DNA of 35,402 bases from Leptolyngbya sp. (GTDB lineage Bacteria > Cyanobacteriota > Cyanobacteriia > Phormidesmidales > Phormidesmidaceae): NCBI GenBank assembly GCA_003249105.1, contig QBLT01000016.1, positions 1-35,402 of the forward strand, written 5' to 3'. Of this stretch, positions 5,275-12,814 are shown in pieces. Position 1 is the first letter of the stretch, and every line of letters starts with the position of its first letter. Below the pieces are notes generated by a model. It did no database searches, had not been told where the DNA came from, and saw only the letters and a list, made by a program, of their open reading frames with translations. The translations under genes and the position numbers were made by a program.

Positions 5275-7029
5275 CTACCCCAATCGCTTCTCTGCCCCTG
5301 CTTCCCCCAGCACCTTGGAGCTAAACAACACCGTCGCCTCCTGCTGAATCGCGGTGTATTGGTCGATCACGGGCTGCACCGCCTCTTCTTCGCGCTCTAC
5401 ATAGTCGTAGAACTGGGTAAAGATGCGCTCCACCTCTTCGTAGATCAGCCCCAGCTTTTCGTTGAGGCGGCTCGACACCTCCTGCTGAAAGCGGTCTTTT
5501 TCGCTGTCTAGCGCCTGCTCAAACTTGGCAACAATGCGGTTGCGCTGCCAGAGAATGCCGATCGCCAGCACCACCACCCCCACCCCAGCAAAGGCAATGC
5601 CAATGGCGCTGAGAATCGCCTCGGCCACCGCAAACTCAATGATGTGCAGAATGGTGCCCGCTACCGCCATAATTGCGCCGCCGACAATTTCGTTGGCCAT
5701 GTCGCCCGCCTGGGTCGACAGCACATCGCCCAGGCCTTGATCGGCCATCAAATTCTTAACCTTGGCCATGACGCTCTCGATCACCTCCTGGCGACGCTCC
5801 AGCACTTTGAGAGAAATGTGGCTGCTCTCAATGCGCTGGGTTTTGACGCTCTCCAGGTCTTGGTTGAGCCCGTCAAACAGCTGGCGAATGCCGTCAACGA
5901 AGTGTTGCGCGCCCTCATTCGAGGCTTCTTCTAGCGACTCGCGCAGGTCGCGAGCGCAGCGCTCCTGAAACTCGTCAATCCAGGCCTGCATTGACTCGTT
6001 CTGGTTAAAGATGCCGACGAAGGATCGCCGCATCACCATCATCACCGATAGGCTCTCGCGAAAGTCGCGCTTAATGCGAGCTGAGATGATTTCGTAACGG
6101 GCCGCCAAGCGATCGGCCAGGGTGTTGATCTCGTAACGCGATCGCCCCCTACCCGCATCGATCTTAGAGCGAATGCTTTGGGAGGTGGCGCGATCGGCGA
6201 CTAGCTGCCGATTCAGCGCCTCCACATCGCCATTCAGCAGGTCAATAATCTGCTGGGTGGTCTGGCTGACCGATCGCAGCTTGATTCTGTAGCTTTCCCC
6301 CGACGACACCATCGCCTGAATGTACTGCCGCACTGGCTCAAACCCGCTGTTCGCTGCATCGCCCTCCTGCTCCAGTGCCGCCGAAGTAGGGAAGATGATG
6401 GGGGCTTTAATCTGCTTCTGGTAGGCGTATTCCTTCACCCGCTCGATGTTGGTTTGCAGATCGGCGGGGCGCAGCAGATCGGCCTGCTGAAGAATGAACA
6501 CCACCTTTTTGCGCCACTCAGCGCTGACAAAATCGAGAAAATCCCAGGCGCTCTTTTGGTAGGGGTTTTTGGCAAACAGCACAAAAAACGTCAGGTCGCT
6601 GTTGGGAATGTAGCGCTCGGTAATGATCTGGTGCTCGGCCACCACCGTGTTAGTGCCCGGCGTATCGACAATCGAAATGTCTTGCAGAATCGGGATCGGT
6701 CGGCCAATCTTGCGCAGGCTCGGCTCTACCTGTTCGACAAACTCTTGCTCGGCGTAGACAATCTGCTGAATCGAGTCGGTGCAGGGCTCAATATCGGTGG
6801 CGCACACCTCAGCGTCGAGCAGGGCGTTGACAAAGCTGCTCTTGCCCGCCTTGACCTCGCCGACTACCACAAACAAAAACGGCTCGTTGATGTTGCGGCG
6901 CAGGTTGTGGGTGGTGCGCTGCAAGTTGGGGTTGTTGATGGTGGTGGCCAGGGCCTGCACCCGCTCTAGCAGGCGATCGAGGTCGTCGCGGTAGGCGTGG
7001 AGCTTTTTGTCAATAATTTGGCTGGCCAC
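5275..7029 (-). CDS. Bacterial dynamin-like GTPase
   Basis: A 584-residue dynamin-family protein. G1 is GEVKAGKSSFVNALL (residues 57-71), G3 is DTPGTNTVV (122-130), and the G4 position reads QQAD (181-184) rather than NKxD. The middle is long and helical. A hydrophobic pair-like segment at about 450-493 (GGAIMAVAGTILHIIEF ... VGVVVLAIGILW) is the expected membrane paddle or anchor. A charged C-terminal coiled coil follows. The architecture matches cyanobacterial BDLPs, which bind and remodel membranes. AAGGAG lies 8 bases before the ATG, a strong ribosome site. It converges with the toxin gene with 12 bases between. The precise role (membrane fusion, stress or phage response) is unknown. Confidence 0.9.
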   Translation of the reverse strand: MASQIIDKKLHAYRDDLDRLLERVQALATTINNPNLQRTTHNLRRNINEPFLFVVVGEVKAGKSSFVNALLDAEVCATDIEPCTDSIQQIVYAEQEFVEQVEPSLRKIGRPIPILQDISIVDTPGTNTVVAEHQIITERYIPNSDLTFFVLFAKNPYQKSAWDFLDFVSAEWRKKVVFILQQADLLRPADLQTNIERVKEYAYQKQIKAPIIFPTSAALEQEGDAANSGFEPVRQYIQAMVSSGESYRIKLRSVSQTTQQIIDLLNGDVEALNRQLVADRATSQSIRSKIDAGRGRSRYEINTLADRLAARYEIISARIKRDFRESLSVMMVMRRSFVGIFNQNESMQAWIDEFQERCARDLRESLEEASNEGAQHFVDGIRQLFDGLNQDLESVKTQRIESSHISLKVLERRQEVIESVMAKVKNLMADQGLGDVLSTQAGDMANEIVGGAIMAVAGTILHIIEFAVAEAILSAIGIAFAGVGVVVLAIGILWQRNRIVAKFEQALDSEKDRFQQEVSSRLNEKLGLIYEEVERIFTQFYDYVEREEEAVQPVIDQYTAIQQEATVLFSSKVLGEAGAEKRLG

Positions 7030-7299
7030 GGCATATCTCCTTAAACCTCACTAGGCCATGCTGGCCTATCTTAAGTATCGCACGGTCGGAATTTTGGGCT
7101 GTCTTCCGTTTGGGTGGCATCTGCCCTCCGAGGCATCGGACGAAGATTTAGCTTGGGACATGGGGAACTTCAGCCCGAAAAGAGATCCACCTTGAGGAAT
7201 CAGAATTTGCCCAACTGCCGAGATAAAGGCTTTGGATGTTAAATATCTCCTGATTCCCTACTATTGGTTTATGACGGCTCGGCTCTGGGAGAACTCCCT

Positions 7300-7908
7300 A
7301 TGACTCAAACTTCATCGTCGCTGATACTTGGCGTTGACGAATTTCTGACCCGCTATGGCGATAACCCTCGCTACGAACTGGCTGATGGAGAACTGATTGA
7401 CATGGAACCTACCGGCTTTCACGAAGCCACTGCCGGAAAAGTTGCCAGCCAGCTCAGTATTGAAATAGACCGCCAGGGCCATCCGTGGATTATTCCTCGT
7501 ACCTGTTTGCTGCGCCCGTTTGCTGACGTTGCCACGGCTCGCCGTCCGGATGTTGTGGTGCTAGATGAACCAGCCCTGATCCATGAGCCACTGTGGGAAC
7601 GAGAACCTGTGATTACTCTGGGTGCTTCGGTAAAGCTGGTGGTGGAGGTGGTGAGCACCAATTGGGAAACGGATTATGCCCGCAAGGTAGAGGAGTATGC
7701 CCTCTTTGGCATTCCAGAATATTGGATTGTGGACTATCGAGGTTTGGGCGGACGGGTGTTTATTGGTAGTCCTAAGCAGCCGACGTTTACGGTGTGTCGG
7801 TTGGCTGGCGAAGACTATCAACAACAGCAGTATCGACTGGGTGAAGCGATTGATTCGCTATTGCTGCCTCAGCTAACGTTACGACTAGATGATGTTATGC
7901 CGCGCTAG
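7300..7908 (+). CDS. Uma2 family nuclease-like protein (DUF820)
   Basis: A 202-residue protein with the Uma2/DUF820 restriction-endonuclease-like fold. It has ADGELIDMEPTGFHEATAGK near the N-terminus, the acidic ARRPDVVVLDE, then KLVVEVVSTNWETDYARKVEEY, and FGIPEYWIVDY. The PD...ExV...K pattern supplies the putative catalytic Asp, Glu and Lys. The family is greatly expanded in cyanobacteria and its substrates are mostly unknown. The ATG at 7300 follows GGGAGA; the TTG at 7264 is less likely. It converges on the AT-rich ATPase-nuclease gene with 9 bases between. Confidence 0.85.
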   Translation: MTQTSSSLILGVDEFLTRYGDNPRYELADGELIDMEPTGFHEATAGKVASQLSIEIDRQGHPWIIPRTCLLRPFADVATARRPDVVVLDEPALIHEPLWEREPVITLGASVKLVVEVVSTNWETDYARKVEEYALFGIPEYWIVDYRGLGGRVFIGSPKQPTFTVCRLAGEDYQQQQYRLGEAIDSLLLPQLTLRLDDVMPR

Positions 7909-7917
7909 GCTGACCGC

Positions 7918-9669
7918 TTATCTAGAAGCTCTAAAGCTTTCGATTTCCGAAAATATTGAGCTTGCTATGAAAAACCAATCTGGGGTTAATGCCTCAATAT
8001 CGTCGAACATTTGCTTGGGGTATTTGTTCACTTGATATTCTACTTTGAGTCTTGTTCGTATACTCCGAAACAACTCTTTCCCTGCAACTAAGCGTCTGCG
8101 TACGCCTGAATCAATTGACCATTCAACAAAAGTTGCATTTGCAAGACCTTCCTTAGTCGAAGCATCATAAGCATCCGGCAATGCATTTCTAATCCTATGT
8201 TTTATTTGATTTTCCCATTCCCTTATAAGAGCCTCGCTTTGAGACTCTTCATCAATGATCTGATCTATGATGTCTTTTGAGATTTTCCCTCCTAAAGCCA
8301 GAAAAAGGAAATCAGAACAACAAAAAAGATTCTCAATTTCTTTGCACGGCAAAGTTAAAAGCTTCCAGTTACCTCCTTCTCTTATTTTTGGTTCTGAATT
8401 AGGCAGATCGGAGTAGTACCAATCCAGATCGCGTATCCCTACAATTCTGGTATTTCTACCTACTCTTTTCTCTACTTGCGCAATGGCTTGCAATGCTTCT
8501 GCATCAAATCGCCCATCTTTATGAGGAACAATAAGGACTTTTGGAAGATTAGCATATTTTTGACGGCACCAACGAATTAGGCTTTCTAGGATCGGTCTAT
8601 CTGTCCTCCCTTCTACATAAACAATGACCTCGGGTGGTGTTCTAACTCCTGCATAAATGTCAGGCGTAACTCCTAATTGTTCCAGATAAAAGTCTAGTTC
8701 ATCAGGTTGATCAATAGTTTTATTTTGCTCTATCCATCGTATGCATTCGCTAGGAGTCCGAATAATAAATTCTGGTGAATGGGAAGCAATAATGACTTGC
8801 TTGTGTTGCTCAACCGCAATATCCAAAAGTAAATTAATCACAATTGCCTGTTGAGAAGCATGTAAATGTGCATCAGGCTCATCAAGCAAAAGGATTCTTG
8901 CAGATGATTGCTCCAGCAGGCGAGCCAGTGTCAAAAAGGTGCGAAGTCCTGCTCCTGACTGCGATATATCTAACCTTGTTTCATTTTTGTCATCATAATT
9001 TATAAGAATTTCTGGTGGATTAGATGAACCTAGAGTTGGTTGCGAGATCTCGACTTCAGGGAAATAGCGCTTAACAAGAGATTTAACAGCTTCAAAAGAC
9101 TCATATCCTCCACTCTGTATCGACCACCAAATAGAATTTCTCCAGAGTTGAGAACCTTTTCCTTGTGACAAGATGGCTTCATAATTTGGCTTTGGAAGCA
9201 TGTCTTCACGAGACGAAATAGTGCCAGGAGGAGTCACAAACTCAGCACCTATTTCAGCCATGTCAACTAAGATATCTTTCCATTCCTCAGCGGAGAAATC
9301 CCCAATACTGGAGAAGCTATAGAGAAAAGTTGTGCCAGAGTATGGTTTAAGTTGAATCGAAATATCATCTGAAAAAGTAGCAACTATCTTCGATTCTGCG
9401 TTTTTCTTCATTTGTGGCAGCAAAGCATTGACATCTTGAAGACCTAAAGATGCTAATGATGACTTTAGGTCTATCCTTTTATCCGCGCCTAGTAGATTTT
9501 TGTCAAAAGGAATATAAGAGAGGGAATCGACTAAAATGTAAGCGGCTTGCAGAAGAGTGGTTTTCCCCGAATTGTTTAAACCAGTAAGAAGAGTAAGATC
9601 TTCCAGCTTACAACTTAAATGGTTAATGCCTTTAAATCCGTCAATCTGAATATTTTTCAAGAAAATCAT
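7918..9669 (-). CDS. ABC/SMC-type ATPase fused to TOPRIM/DUF4435-like nuclease
   Basis: A 583-residue two-part protein. The N-terminal part is an ABC-type ATPase of the OLD/AAA15 kind: Walker A GLNNSGKTT (30-38), signature-like SQSGAGLRTFLTLARLL, Walker B ARILLLDEPDAHLHASQQ (about 255-270), and H-loop IIASHSPEFI. The C-terminal part starts VIVYVEGRTDRPILESLI (Glu near 350), continues to IVGIRDLDWYY (DxD near 411), then CKEIENLF. That reads as a TOPRIM-like metal-dependent nuclease, either OLD-type or the DUF4435 type found in AriB of PARIS. Such proteins are mostly anti-phage or overcoming-lysogenisation nucleases. The ATG at 9669 is preferred to a TTG at 9726 because homologous ATPases begin MxLxxhxIxxFKG; its ribosome site is weak. 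DNA is clearly AT-richer than its neighbours. Confidence 0.83.
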   Translation of the reverse strand: MIFLKNIQIDGFKGINHLSCKLEDLTLLTGLNNSGKTTLLQAAYILVDSLSYIPFDKNLLGADKRIDLKSSLASLGLQDVNALLPQMKKNAESKIVATFSDDISIQLKPYSGTTFLYSFSSIGDFSAEEWKDILVDMAEIGAEFVTPPGTISSREDMLPKPNYEAILSQGKGSQLWRNSIWWSIQSGGYESFEAVKSLVKRYFPEVEISQPTLGSSNPPEILINYDDKNETRLDISQSGAGLRTFLTLARLLEQSSARILLLDEPDAHLHASQQAIVINLLLDIAVEQHKQVIIASHSPEFIIRTPSECIRWIEQNKTIDQPDELDFYLEQLGVTPDIYAGVRTPPEVIVYVEGRTDRPILESLIRWCRQKYANLPKVLIVPHKDGRFDAEALQAIAQVEKRVGRNTRIVGIRDLDWYYSDLPNSEPKIREGGNWKLLTLPCKEIENLFCCSDFLFLALGGKISKDIIDQIIDEESQSEALIREWENQIKHRIRNALPDAYDASTKEGLANATFVEWSIDSGVRRRLVAGKELFRSIRTRLKVEYQVNKYPKQMFDDIEALTPDWFFIASSIFSEIESFRASR

Positions 9670-9747
9670 TTTAATTCGTTCTAATAGAATCCAAGTAAAT
9701 GCTTTGGTATGACTGATAGCTAACAAAATTCGAGGGGAAGTTCACTC

Positions 9748-10392
9748 TTAAGCCGATTCAAGGTATAACCATCCGTCAACTGAAGCATTCGCACTTGCTA
9801 GTTCTACAGACTTCACTCGCCAACGATTATTCTCAACGAGAATAACATCTCCAGTAATGGGGCGAATTCGTGTATGCCAGCGATAATAAGACACTGCGTC
9901 GCTGGCATGTTCCCGCTGAATGTATGAATCATGTCTTAACTCCCAAGCAAAGTACTGAAGATCATTCCCGCGCCTAGCAAAATTCTCCCACTCATGTGTT
10001 GCATTATTTTCTAGGGCTTCTACTGAAAAGTGGGCACTTGACAACTTCGGGACAATATCTTCGCGAATGCTGATTCTTGCTGAGACAAAAGGGTTCTCTT
10101 TTATCCCTGATTGACTATGCCAATCAGTTTCTAGCAAAACTCTTGATACTTGGATTTGCCACCCACTAAATTGTAATGTATCTCCAACTCTAGGAATTAT
10201 GGGAGTCCATATAAACCATGAACCTTCTCCACTTTTATTTCTTTCAACTATTTTTTCTCCCCATAGAAGAGCATGTATTTCATTAATGAAAATATCAGGA
10301 TAGCTTACAGAAAGATTATCAGTTTTCTTTAGCTCATCACCTTCATGTTCAGGATAGTTATCAATCTCGCAAAAATACCACTGGACATCCAT
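9748..10392 (-). CDS. Unrecognised 214-aa protein in nuclease operon
   Basis: A soluble 214-residue protein, MDVQWYFCEIDNYPEHEGDE onward, which I do not recognise. It has no signal peptide, membrane segment or nucleotide-binding motif. Two stretches look alike: PRVGDTLQFSGWQIQVSRVLL (about 67-87) and PITGDVILVENNRWRVKSVEL (about 178-198). Both read P-x-x-GD-hydrophobic-W-x-V-x-V-x-L, suggesting two copies of a small beta-barrel fold. The Trp and Tyr content is high. CAGGAG sits 7 bases before the ATG, a good ribosome site. It is 78 bases upstream of, and on the same strand as, the ATPase-nuclease gene and shares its AT-rich composition, so the two probably form one transferred operon. It could be a sensor, regulator or antitoxin-like partner. 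Confidence 0.75.
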   Translation of the reverse strand: MDVQWYFCEIDNYPEHEGDELKKTDNLSVSYPDIFINEIHALLWGEKIVERNKSGEGSWFIWTPIIPRVGDTLQFSGWQIQVSRVLLETDWHSQSGIKENPFVSARISIREDIVPKLSSAHFSVEALENNATHEWENFARRGNDLQYFAWELRHDSYIQREHASDAVSYYRWHTRIRPITGDVILVENNRWRVKSVELASANASVDGWLYLESA

Positions 10393-10538: not shown

Positions 10539-10709
10539 TCATCTCTGCTTGTCTGATCGCAAAAACTCCCGCACTACAATCTCGCAATTGGGAAATGCCA
10601 GCGATTCCTCAATTAATTTCACCCGCTCATCTGTCGCCAAAATCCCTGCTGCTACCATGCGGTGATAGTCTTGCACGCTTAGCGATCGCAGGTCTGTGGC
10701 AGCCGTCAT
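10539..10709 (-). pseudogene. Uma2 family relic with central deletion
   Basis: The frame opens MTAATDLRSLSVQDYHRMVA and runs to ILATDERVKLIE, the usual Uma2 N-terminus. It then jumps directly to ESLAFPNCEIVVREFLRSD, which is like the last residues of many Uma2 proteins (LAFPDxxIxVxxFL). The catalytic core of some 120-140 residues expected between them is missing, but the frame is kept. At 56 residues it cannot be an active nuclease. A HIP1 octamer falls in it. It lies upstream of the AT-rich island; a separate intact Uma2 gene lies on the other side. Confidence 0.65.
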
Positions 10710-10861
10710 AGAGGTGACCCTTGCTCCTATTGTGGCACAGGGGCTTGTCTTACCTAATTCCACCATTAGGCGTCGTGGCATGCAAAAGGGGACGGGTGCT
10801 TTTGCTCTTTAGCGGAGATCGGTGGTGAGCCCAAAGCATCCGTCCCCTGGACGGGCATCGT

Positions 10862-11149
10862 TTACATCGGTATTTGTCGATCACGCCTCAGCAGACTAAA
10901 CACCTCGCCCTGCTCTGGGGTAATCAAAATTCCCGATCGCGGAATCGTAATCAACTGGCTCCAGGTTGCCTGCTCTGCATAGGTCAACACATGCAGCAGG
11001 TTAATCGTCGCTCGCACTCCCTCCGGCGAGCCAATCACCAAATGGCGCAACCGCTCTCGCCCCGGCTGGGCTTCTGGATTCGCAAGCAGCAGCGGATTGG
11101 TCGCCTCCCAGCTCTGGGCAGACGACACCAAATATGGCAAACACAACAT
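10862..11149 (-). CDS. Conserved hypothetical small protein
   Basis: A 95-residue protein beginning MLCLPYLVSSAQSWEATNPL. Its core reads LVIGSPEGVRATINLLHVLTYAEQATWSQLI, then ITPEQGEVFSLLRRDRQI. I recall short cyanobacterial proteins with the same GsxEGVRxTIxxLHxLxYAExxxWSxLhP...GEVMSILTR pattern, often beside Uma2 or repeat-rich loci, with no known function. Residues before the core vary. The ATG at 11149 has GGAAGGA 9 bases upstream and is preferred to an in-frame start at 11242. No membrane segments or catalytic motifs are visible. Confidence 0.68.
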   Translation of the reverse strand: MLCLPYLVSSAQSWEATNPLLLANPEAQPGRERLRHLVIGSPEGVRATINLLHVLTYAEQATWSQLITIPRSGILITPEQGEVFSLLRRDRQIPM

Positions 11150-11542
11150 AATCGGGTTCCTTCCGAATGTAACGACGGGTAAGAAACTCAAAAACTTGGC
11201 CGCCCCAGACATGTACAGTTCAGGACGGCCAGGTAAAATCACCTTAGCCTCCGAGACAGCTAGACCCTGTCGACGGGGTTAGCCGCTGGTTGGTGTTACT
11301 AGCACCTTCCAGTGGCGTTAGACCAAATTTTTGGGACGTTCAGACTGCACTCACACAGCCTTAGCTCAGTAATTTAATCCAATCGCGTACCAGACGCAAG
11401 TAAGAATTGTTACCGACTTCTAGAAACCCTGAGTTTAGAAACCGGGTTATATTTAACTTCTACACACCCTTGAGAAACCTGGTTTCTGGCCCTATATCCT
11501 TACTTTCGCAGCCCGTAAGGTTGATAGCCAACTCCAAAAGCT
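11150..11542. other. Intergenic region with AGAAACC repeats
   Basis: Nearly 400 bases between the small hypothetical gene and the end of sufS. I see no credible gene. The part nearest sufS carries related AGAAACC units (about 11422, 11438 and 11473), the last being a perfect palindrome. The remainder holds no motif I recognise. Confidence 0.55.
11422..11487. repeat. AGAAACC palindromic repeat cluster
   Basis: Three AGAAACC units in 66 bases: AGAAACCCTGAGTTT, AGAAACCGGGTTA and the perfect inverted repeat AGAAACCTGGTTTCT at 11473-11487. The last lies about 55 bases beyond the sufS stop and could form a 7-bp stem in the suf transcript. Similar AGAAACCsGGTTTCT elements are, to my memory, common in filamentous cyanobacteria. 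Confidence 0.6.
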
Positions 11543-12814
11543 TCAATCGTCGTCTTCAAAAACACCTTTAAAAAACTCGATGGTGTCTTTGAGTGCCGCG
11601 ATAAAGCTGTCGATTTCGGCCTTGGTGTTATAGAAATAGAGGCTGGCCCGCGCGGTAGAATCAACGCCCAAAATTCGGTGCAGTGGCTGGGTGCAGTGGT
11701 GACCCGATCGAATAGCAATCCCCGACTGATCTAGCAGGGTAGACAAGTCCTGGGCGTGAACACCCTCAACGGTGAAAGTCGCCAGGGCTGCCCGTCCGCT
11801 GCCGTCAGCCTGGGGAAGCGGCCCATAGAGGGTGACTTCGGGAATGGTCTGCATTTGCTGGTAAAGGTAGGTCGTCAGCTCGTGCTCGTAGGCAGCGATG
11901 TTGTCCATGCCCAAAGCACTGAGGTAGTCTACGGCGGCCCCCAAGGCGATCGCCTCTGCGATCGCCGGAGTGCCCGCCTCAAACTTGTGGGGCAGTTCCG
12001 CGTAGGTGGAGTGGTCGAGAAACACATCGGCGATCATTTCGCCGCCGCCCATAAAGGGGGGCATGGCCTCCAGCACCTCTAGCTTGCCGTAGAGAAACCC
12101 GATGCCGGTAGGGGCACACATCTTGTGGCCAGAGGCAACAAACCAGTCGCAGCCCAGTGCGGGCAGGTCGAGCGGCAGGTGGGGAGCGCTCTGGCAGCCG
12201 TCAATCAGCACTTTGGCTCCGTTGGCGTGGGCGATCGCAATAATCTCCTCTACCGGGTTAATGCAGCCCAGGGTATTAGAGACGTGGTTGACGGCCACTA
12301 GGCGAGTCTTGTCGCTAATCAACTCCCGATACTGGTCGAGATCAAAGGATTGATCGGTGGTTAGCCCCACAAACTTGAGCACTGCCCCGGTGCGCTGAGC
12401 CACCAGCTGCCAGGGCACGAGGTTGCTGTGGTGCTCCATCACCGAGAGAATGATTTCATCCCCTGCTTTGAGCGTGTTCATGCCCCAGGCGTAGGCCACT
12501 AAGTTGATGGCTTCGCTGGCGTTGCGGGTAAAGACAATCTCGTCGCGGCTGGTGGCTTTCACAAAAGCCGCCACCTTATCCCTCGCGCCCTCGTAGGACT
12601 CAGTAGCCCGAGCGCTGAGGTTGTGCACCCCCCGATGCACGTTGGCGTTATCGTTTTGATAGTAGTGCTGGAGCGCGTCTAGCACCGCCTTGGGCTTCTG
12701 CGAGGTGGCGGCGTTGTCGAGGTACACCAGCGGATGCCCATTCACCTCCTGATGCAGAATCGGGAAGTCGGCACGAACCTTGGCGGCGAGGGTGAGTTCC
12801 TGGGCGACGGTCAT
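11543..12814 (-). CDS. sufS: Cysteine desulfurase SufS
   Basis: A 423-residue PLP-dependent cysteine desulfurase. It takes sulfur from cysteine and supplies it as persulfide to the SUF scaffold. Visible landmarks are [11 protein letters not shown] near the start, [11 protein letters not shown], the PLP lysine Lys231 in [11 protein letters not shown], and the persulfide-carrying Cys374 in [11 protein letters not shown]. The length and the RSGHHCxxPL form fit SufS (group II) rather than IscS/NifS. It is the last gene of ftrC-sufB-sufC-sufD-sufS, 95 bases after sufD. A CCCCTCT/AGAGGGG hairpin lies in that gap. The start at 12814 lacks an obvious ribosome site. Confidence 0.95.

Follow-up and report, generated by a model that had tools for sequence, protein, structure and literature searches.

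The locus considered here raises the question of which kind of nuclease is encoded by a small AT-rich gene pair in a cyanobacterial genome, and whether the two genes act as one defence system. In the window, i.e., the whole 35,402-nt stretch of Leptolyngbya sp. DNA that was analyzed, the two same-strand ORFs described in the initial annotation are present at 7918-9726 and 9748-10392 on the minus strand, and both reading frames are intact. The first ORF encodes 602 aa when read from the TTG at 9726. The ATG at 9669 is the likelier start and gives a protein of 583 aa (7918-9669, minus strand) in which an ABC/AAA_15 ATPase is fused to a putative DUF4435-type TOPRIM. The second ORF encodes a protein of 214 aa that belongs to no known family and has a good ribosome-binding site, AGGAG, upstream. 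The two genes are spaced by 78 nt with the ATG start and by 21 nt with the TTG start, and no terminator-like site was found between them.

Composition supports a clearly foreign, horizontally acquired insert. The GC content of the insert is 39.4% vs 56.2% for the window, and GC3 is 0.31 and 0.30 in the two ORFs vs 0.76 in the dynamin-like gene and 0.74 in the cysteine desulfurase gene that flank them, so that both genes are indeed AT-richer than their neighbours, as had been remarked by eye. The gap in HIP1 octamers claimed for about 6.15-10.68 kb was borne out as well, with 49 octamers in the window, two of them bordering the gap at 6138 and 10682, and none in between. The region at 7.9-10.4 kb also differs from the window in tetranucleotide usage, with a distance of 0.69 between the insert and the rest of the window vs a maximum of 0.25 when 116 further stretches of equal length were examined. 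Neither a tRNA or Rfam element marking integration at the island nor a long flanking direct repeat marking such an event was found.

The ATPase domain (residues 1-335; 8665..9669, minus strand) carries the Walker A motif GLNNSGKTT at residues 30-38 and DEPDAHLH at residues 263-270. The protein matches AAA_15 of Pfam at 81.6 bits (E 1.1e-22 to 2e-22) and AAA_21 at 56.3 bits, both above the 32 / 27 bits that PMC9122126 gives for AAA_15/AAA_21 in the ATPase of PARIS. A structure model (m2a65cbd55865) from 52 relatives reached a mean pLDDT of 84, falling towards the C-terminal end. The fold search was confined to the ATPase half (residues 1-336) and is silent on the TOPRIM. PtuA was the best match with a Z of 21.2, AriA reached a Z of 19.3, and SMC/Rad50 heads were found too. 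The AriB and OLD TOPRIM folds are absent among the matches listed for this half, which is evidence neither way. As modelled, the ATPase half falls into a broad clade, and the fold matches do not choose among the families in it.

The TOPRIM core follows at residues 340-460 (8290..8652, minus strand) with VEG (E353), DxD (D414, D416), and EIEN (E446), and the model ends in a mostly helical C-terminal part at residues 461-583 (7921..8289, minus strand). VEGRTD, RDLDW, and EIENL, the motifs quoted in the initial annotation, were all found. Across the alignment of 52 relatives, E353, D414, D416, and E446 either do not vary or reach at least 90% conservation, and the acidic residues expected of a PARIS TOPRIM (the E of VEG and the D of DxD) are kept in E353, D414, and D416. 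The AAA_15 match and these conserved acidic residues support the reading that an ATPase and a TOPRIM are fused in one protein.

The type of the TOPRIM was addressed by profile searches, in which AAA_15 was matched, DUF4435 fell below threshold, and PF20469 was not matched. DUF4435 was the only Pfam family matched by the isolated C-terminal domain, with 12.2 bits (E 0.15), short of the cut-off of 27 bits that applies both in Pfam and in the published PARIS criterion. The nearest full-length relative is a Nitrospirota protein (L048) that is 28% identical over residues 2-564, and it matches DUF4435 at E 6.4e-5. Two profile sets were built for comparison with hhalign, one from 15 cyanobacterial DUF4435 domains and a small one from 7 OLD-type TOPRIM domains. 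The window sequence together with L048 aligned to the DUF4435 set with E 1.9e-8 and a score of 59.5, while the best of 100 column shuffles scored 20.5. Against the OLD TOPRIM set, the same pair gave an E of 0.043 and a score of 19.7, which lies within shuffle noise. The window sequence alone scored 30.9 with DUF4435 (best shuffle 20.0) and 18.1 with OLD. With all 52 relatives, the OLD score rose (probability 75% vs 94% for DUF4435), as is expected within one superfamily. When PDB sequences were searched with a profile of the C-terminal domain, there were chance hits only, and AriB was not found. On these profile comparisons, the C-terminal domain reads as a remote DUF4435 (AriB-type) TOPRIM and not as an OLD-type one. 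The DUF4435 features that had been noticed in the TOPRIM thus hold in profile comparison, though not at the Pfam threshold.

The initial annotation had offered either a fused AriA-AriB or an OLD nuclease. The former is the better reading, and OLD is disfavoured for the nuclease domain, because hhalign favours DUF4435, the OLD score is noise, and the catalytic residues are kept. A single-gene OLD nuclease of a class 1-like kind, in which a TOPRIM under the control of the ATPase would degrade DNA, of phage or host, and have no RNA target, consequently appears unlikely. OLD, GajA, and the protein studied here do have the same order of an N-terminal ABC ATPase and a C-terminal TOPRIM, the ATPase part is hit by the Old (E 1.6e-20) and GajA (E 4e-16) profiles of PADLOC, and T. 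scotoductus OLD and GajA are included in the Foldseek list for the ATPase half. However, the Old and GajA matches fall in the ATPase that these families share, and the TOPRIM is of another type, with PF20469, the OLD-type TOPRIM, matched neither by the protein nor by its 51 relatives (0/52) nor anywhere in the window's genome. In contrast to Gabija, no GajB (UvrD-like helicase) is adjacent, the neighbouring ORFs being Uma2 and the 214-aa protein.

Likeness to other systems was weighed in the same manner. The ATPase half, and the ATPase half only, resembles PtuA of Septu and of retrons Ec78/Ec83, its best fold match, but neither an HNH partner gene like PtuB nor a reverse transcriptase adjoins, and no TOPRIM match is reported for PtuA while the present protein has a TOPRIM. 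Fused PARIS, which is known also as a single-gene ATPase-DUF4435 fusion (PMC9122126), is resembled in that an AAA_15-type ATPase precedes a DUF4435-like TOPRIM with VEG, DxD, and IEN motifs on one chain. In contrast, the DUF4435 score stays below the published value, and in direct comparison the protein is only weakly similar to clear cyanobacterial ATPase-DUF4435 fusions, with a best E of 3e-5. Since it misses the DUF4435 threshold but passes both the threshold for the ATPase and the profile-profile comparison, the protein is filed, on sequence grounds, as a divergent relative of fused PARIS rather than as PARIS proper. HEC-04 and IbfA, as described in PMC12111858, have the same one-gene ATPase-TOPRIM architecture without a partner, but they come from enterobacteria and the present protein from a cyanobacterium. 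Our verdict is a divergent member of an already known kind that is accompanied by an orphan 214-aa protein. Whether such fusions make up a separate class and whether a single gene suffices for defence are listed as open in a review of the OLD family (PMC10568477), and the protein provides a far-diverged case of an ATPase joined in a single chain to an apparent AriB-type TOPRIM.

The 214-aa protein found no match in Pfam, NCBIfam, or PADLOC and no significant one in PHROGs. Weak matches in PHROGs, the PDB, or Rfam were looked at, and none was credible. A model of the protein alone was useless (pLDDT 36.5). Its gene was present in 2 out of 386 cyanobacterial genomes, namely this one and G129, and no further relative was detected in 59 more genomes of the window's family or in 60 of the family of G129. 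The G129 relative is 61-62% identical over the first 158 residues, after which a frameshift follows. Because dN was 0.30 and dS 1.40 against this only relative (dN/dS about 0.22), the 214-aa ORF is a genuine coding sequence under purifying selection.

That the two genes form one system, as had been proposed, is not supported by their distribution, as they were seen together in this genome only and G129 and L048 each have one without the other. The G129 copy adjoins hisA and has no ATPase beside it, with a small pair of plus-strand genes, itself beside a Uma2 gene, on its other side, and the likeness between G129 and the window is confined to the 214-aa gene itself and a piece of the Uma2 gene. 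At the L048 locus, which holds no 214-like gene, the ORF upstream of the ATPase-TOPRIM gene lies on the opposite strand and a different gene starts about 200 nt downstream. No 214-like sequence occurred in 80 loci around ATPase relatives. A scan of the phylum with the ATPase at E <= 1e-20 recovered the window itself only, and no close relative turned up when both proteins were compared with plasmids and phages by tblastn or when viral contigs were scanned. The two genes are thus not co-conserved, on very few cases, and a pairing observed once argues against an obligate two-gene system, the numbers being small.

A two-component system in which the 214-aa protein serves as phage sensor, trigger deliverer, or antitoxin to the ATPase-TOPRIM protein is accordingly held to be quite improbable. 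The adjacency of the genes on one strand, the short gap free of a terminator-like site, the low GC shared by both genes, and the purifying selection on the 214-aa gene are what it would predict, but the unpaired copies in G129 and L048 and the 0/80 count speak against it, in a sample that is tiny on both sides. It is similarly doubtful that the protein, with its two known members, is a real partner that adds a sensing or control step to a one-chain PARIS-like nuclease and so makes an undescribed two-gene system. A lineage-specific partnership may exist. The distribution is better read as that of a co-acquired cargo gene or an optional accessory, with no obligate partner.

The insert occupies a slot between two anchors. 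The left anchor is a dynamin-like GTPase gene (5275..7029, minus strand; Pfam Dynamin_N E 2e-19). In most congeners, its DNA is 84-93% identical along the greater part of the gene. The right anchor is a SufS-like cysteine desulfurase gene (11543..12814, minus strand; Pfam Aminotran_5 E 3e-149), which lies near the dynamin-like gene in eight congeners. Among the flanking genes claimed initially, the Uma2-family gene was verified at 7264..7908 on the plus strand (Pfam Uma2 E 5e-32; ATG probably at 7300), while the putative Uma2 relic of 80 aa (10539..10781, minus strand) was recognized by inspection only and had no Pfam match. Part of the relic's DNA recurs in G405. The right edge of the slot is formed by a 126-aa ORF (10862..11242, minus strand) of a multi-copy unknown family with no match in Pfam or PADLOC. 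Most genomes of the genus have several members of this family, often beside variable genes.

Between the anchors, the congeners differ. The two anchors are separated by about 0.1 kb in G415, by about 0.4 kb in G409, and by 0.9 kb in G408. The slot of G416 holds a TIR-GUN4 gene (ThsB-type TIR, E 8.5e-59), that of G428 an HTH gene and a HigBA-like toxin-antitoxin pair, and those of G417 and G414 a single protein of 444 aa that belongs to no known family. G427 and G405 have the Uma2 gene at the same place, and G428 and G416 lack it next to the anchor. Beside the dynamin-like and Uma2 genes, G427 carries a DRT UG13a reverse transcriptase (E 1.7e-191) with Sa-NUDIX, and G405 carries LeoBC (E 4e-113) with LeoA (E 4e-122). 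These two genomes share the left edge only, as the right anchor was not present in the stretch compared, where G427 instead carries a gene resembling alanyl-tRNA synthetase. The site is thus a variable one at which several defence cassettes are exchanged, and its occupants are not all known defence genes, the 444-aa protein, a transposase-broken NTPase gene, and a TPR gene not being established ones. The earlier suggestion of a defence-type island is upheld by the TIR-GUN4, DRT UG13a with Sa-NUDIX, and LeoBC-LeoA genes at the slot or its left edge, and such occupants in congeners make a defence role of the island likely. The slot may be the more useful product of this analysis, as it can be mined in the genus for further defence systems.

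Several of these occupants merit a description of their own. The TIR protein of G416 (L046 2201-4603) has 800 aa with a C-terminal GUN4 domain and is a candidate defence architecture. The 444-aa protein (L157 1220-2554 and L159 1676-3010) is apparently membrane-spanning and a candidate unknown defence gene. In G406 (L160 9287-13934), a DDE transposase gene apparently interrupts a KAP-type NTPase gene, and a TPR protein is encoded alongside. In G427 (L043 3133-5936), DRT UG13a and its Sa-NUDIX partner, which has two TM segments, lie on opposite strands.

That the pair is transient cargo with no working defence role, decaying or serving another function such as plasmid exclusion, would fit its extreme rarity in the phylum, the gene relics among its neighbours, and the frameshift in the other 214-aa copy, but is very unlikely given two intact frames, kept catalytic residues, and defence genes at the site in sister genomes.

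The island is most probably, though with some reserve, an anti-phage cassette of recent acquisition that sits in a variable defence slot, and its working part would be one PARIS-like chain of an ATPase and a DUF4435/AriB-type TOPRIM. By analogy with PARIS, sensor and effector of the mechanism would be joined in this one chain. The ATPase, of the AAA_15/OLD clade, may assemble and hold the TOPRIM in check until it senses a product of the phage. The released TOPRIM would then cut host nucleic acid, with tRNA or other RNA a more likely substrate than DNA, and growth of the infected cell would stop. AriB itself is a tRNA-cutting TOPRIM (PMC12409363). IbfA and HEC-04 are single-gene ATPase-TOPRIM proteins that are reported to lower phage growth (PMC12111858), and since they act as single genes, a partner is not required in principle.

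On a Nostoc plasmid, a distant relative of the ATPase-TOPRIM protein (L005 6001-7878) is embedded in a BREX operon, where pglX and pglZ flank it, which agrees with the association of OLD-ABC/TOPRIM proteins with BREX given in PMC12839542.
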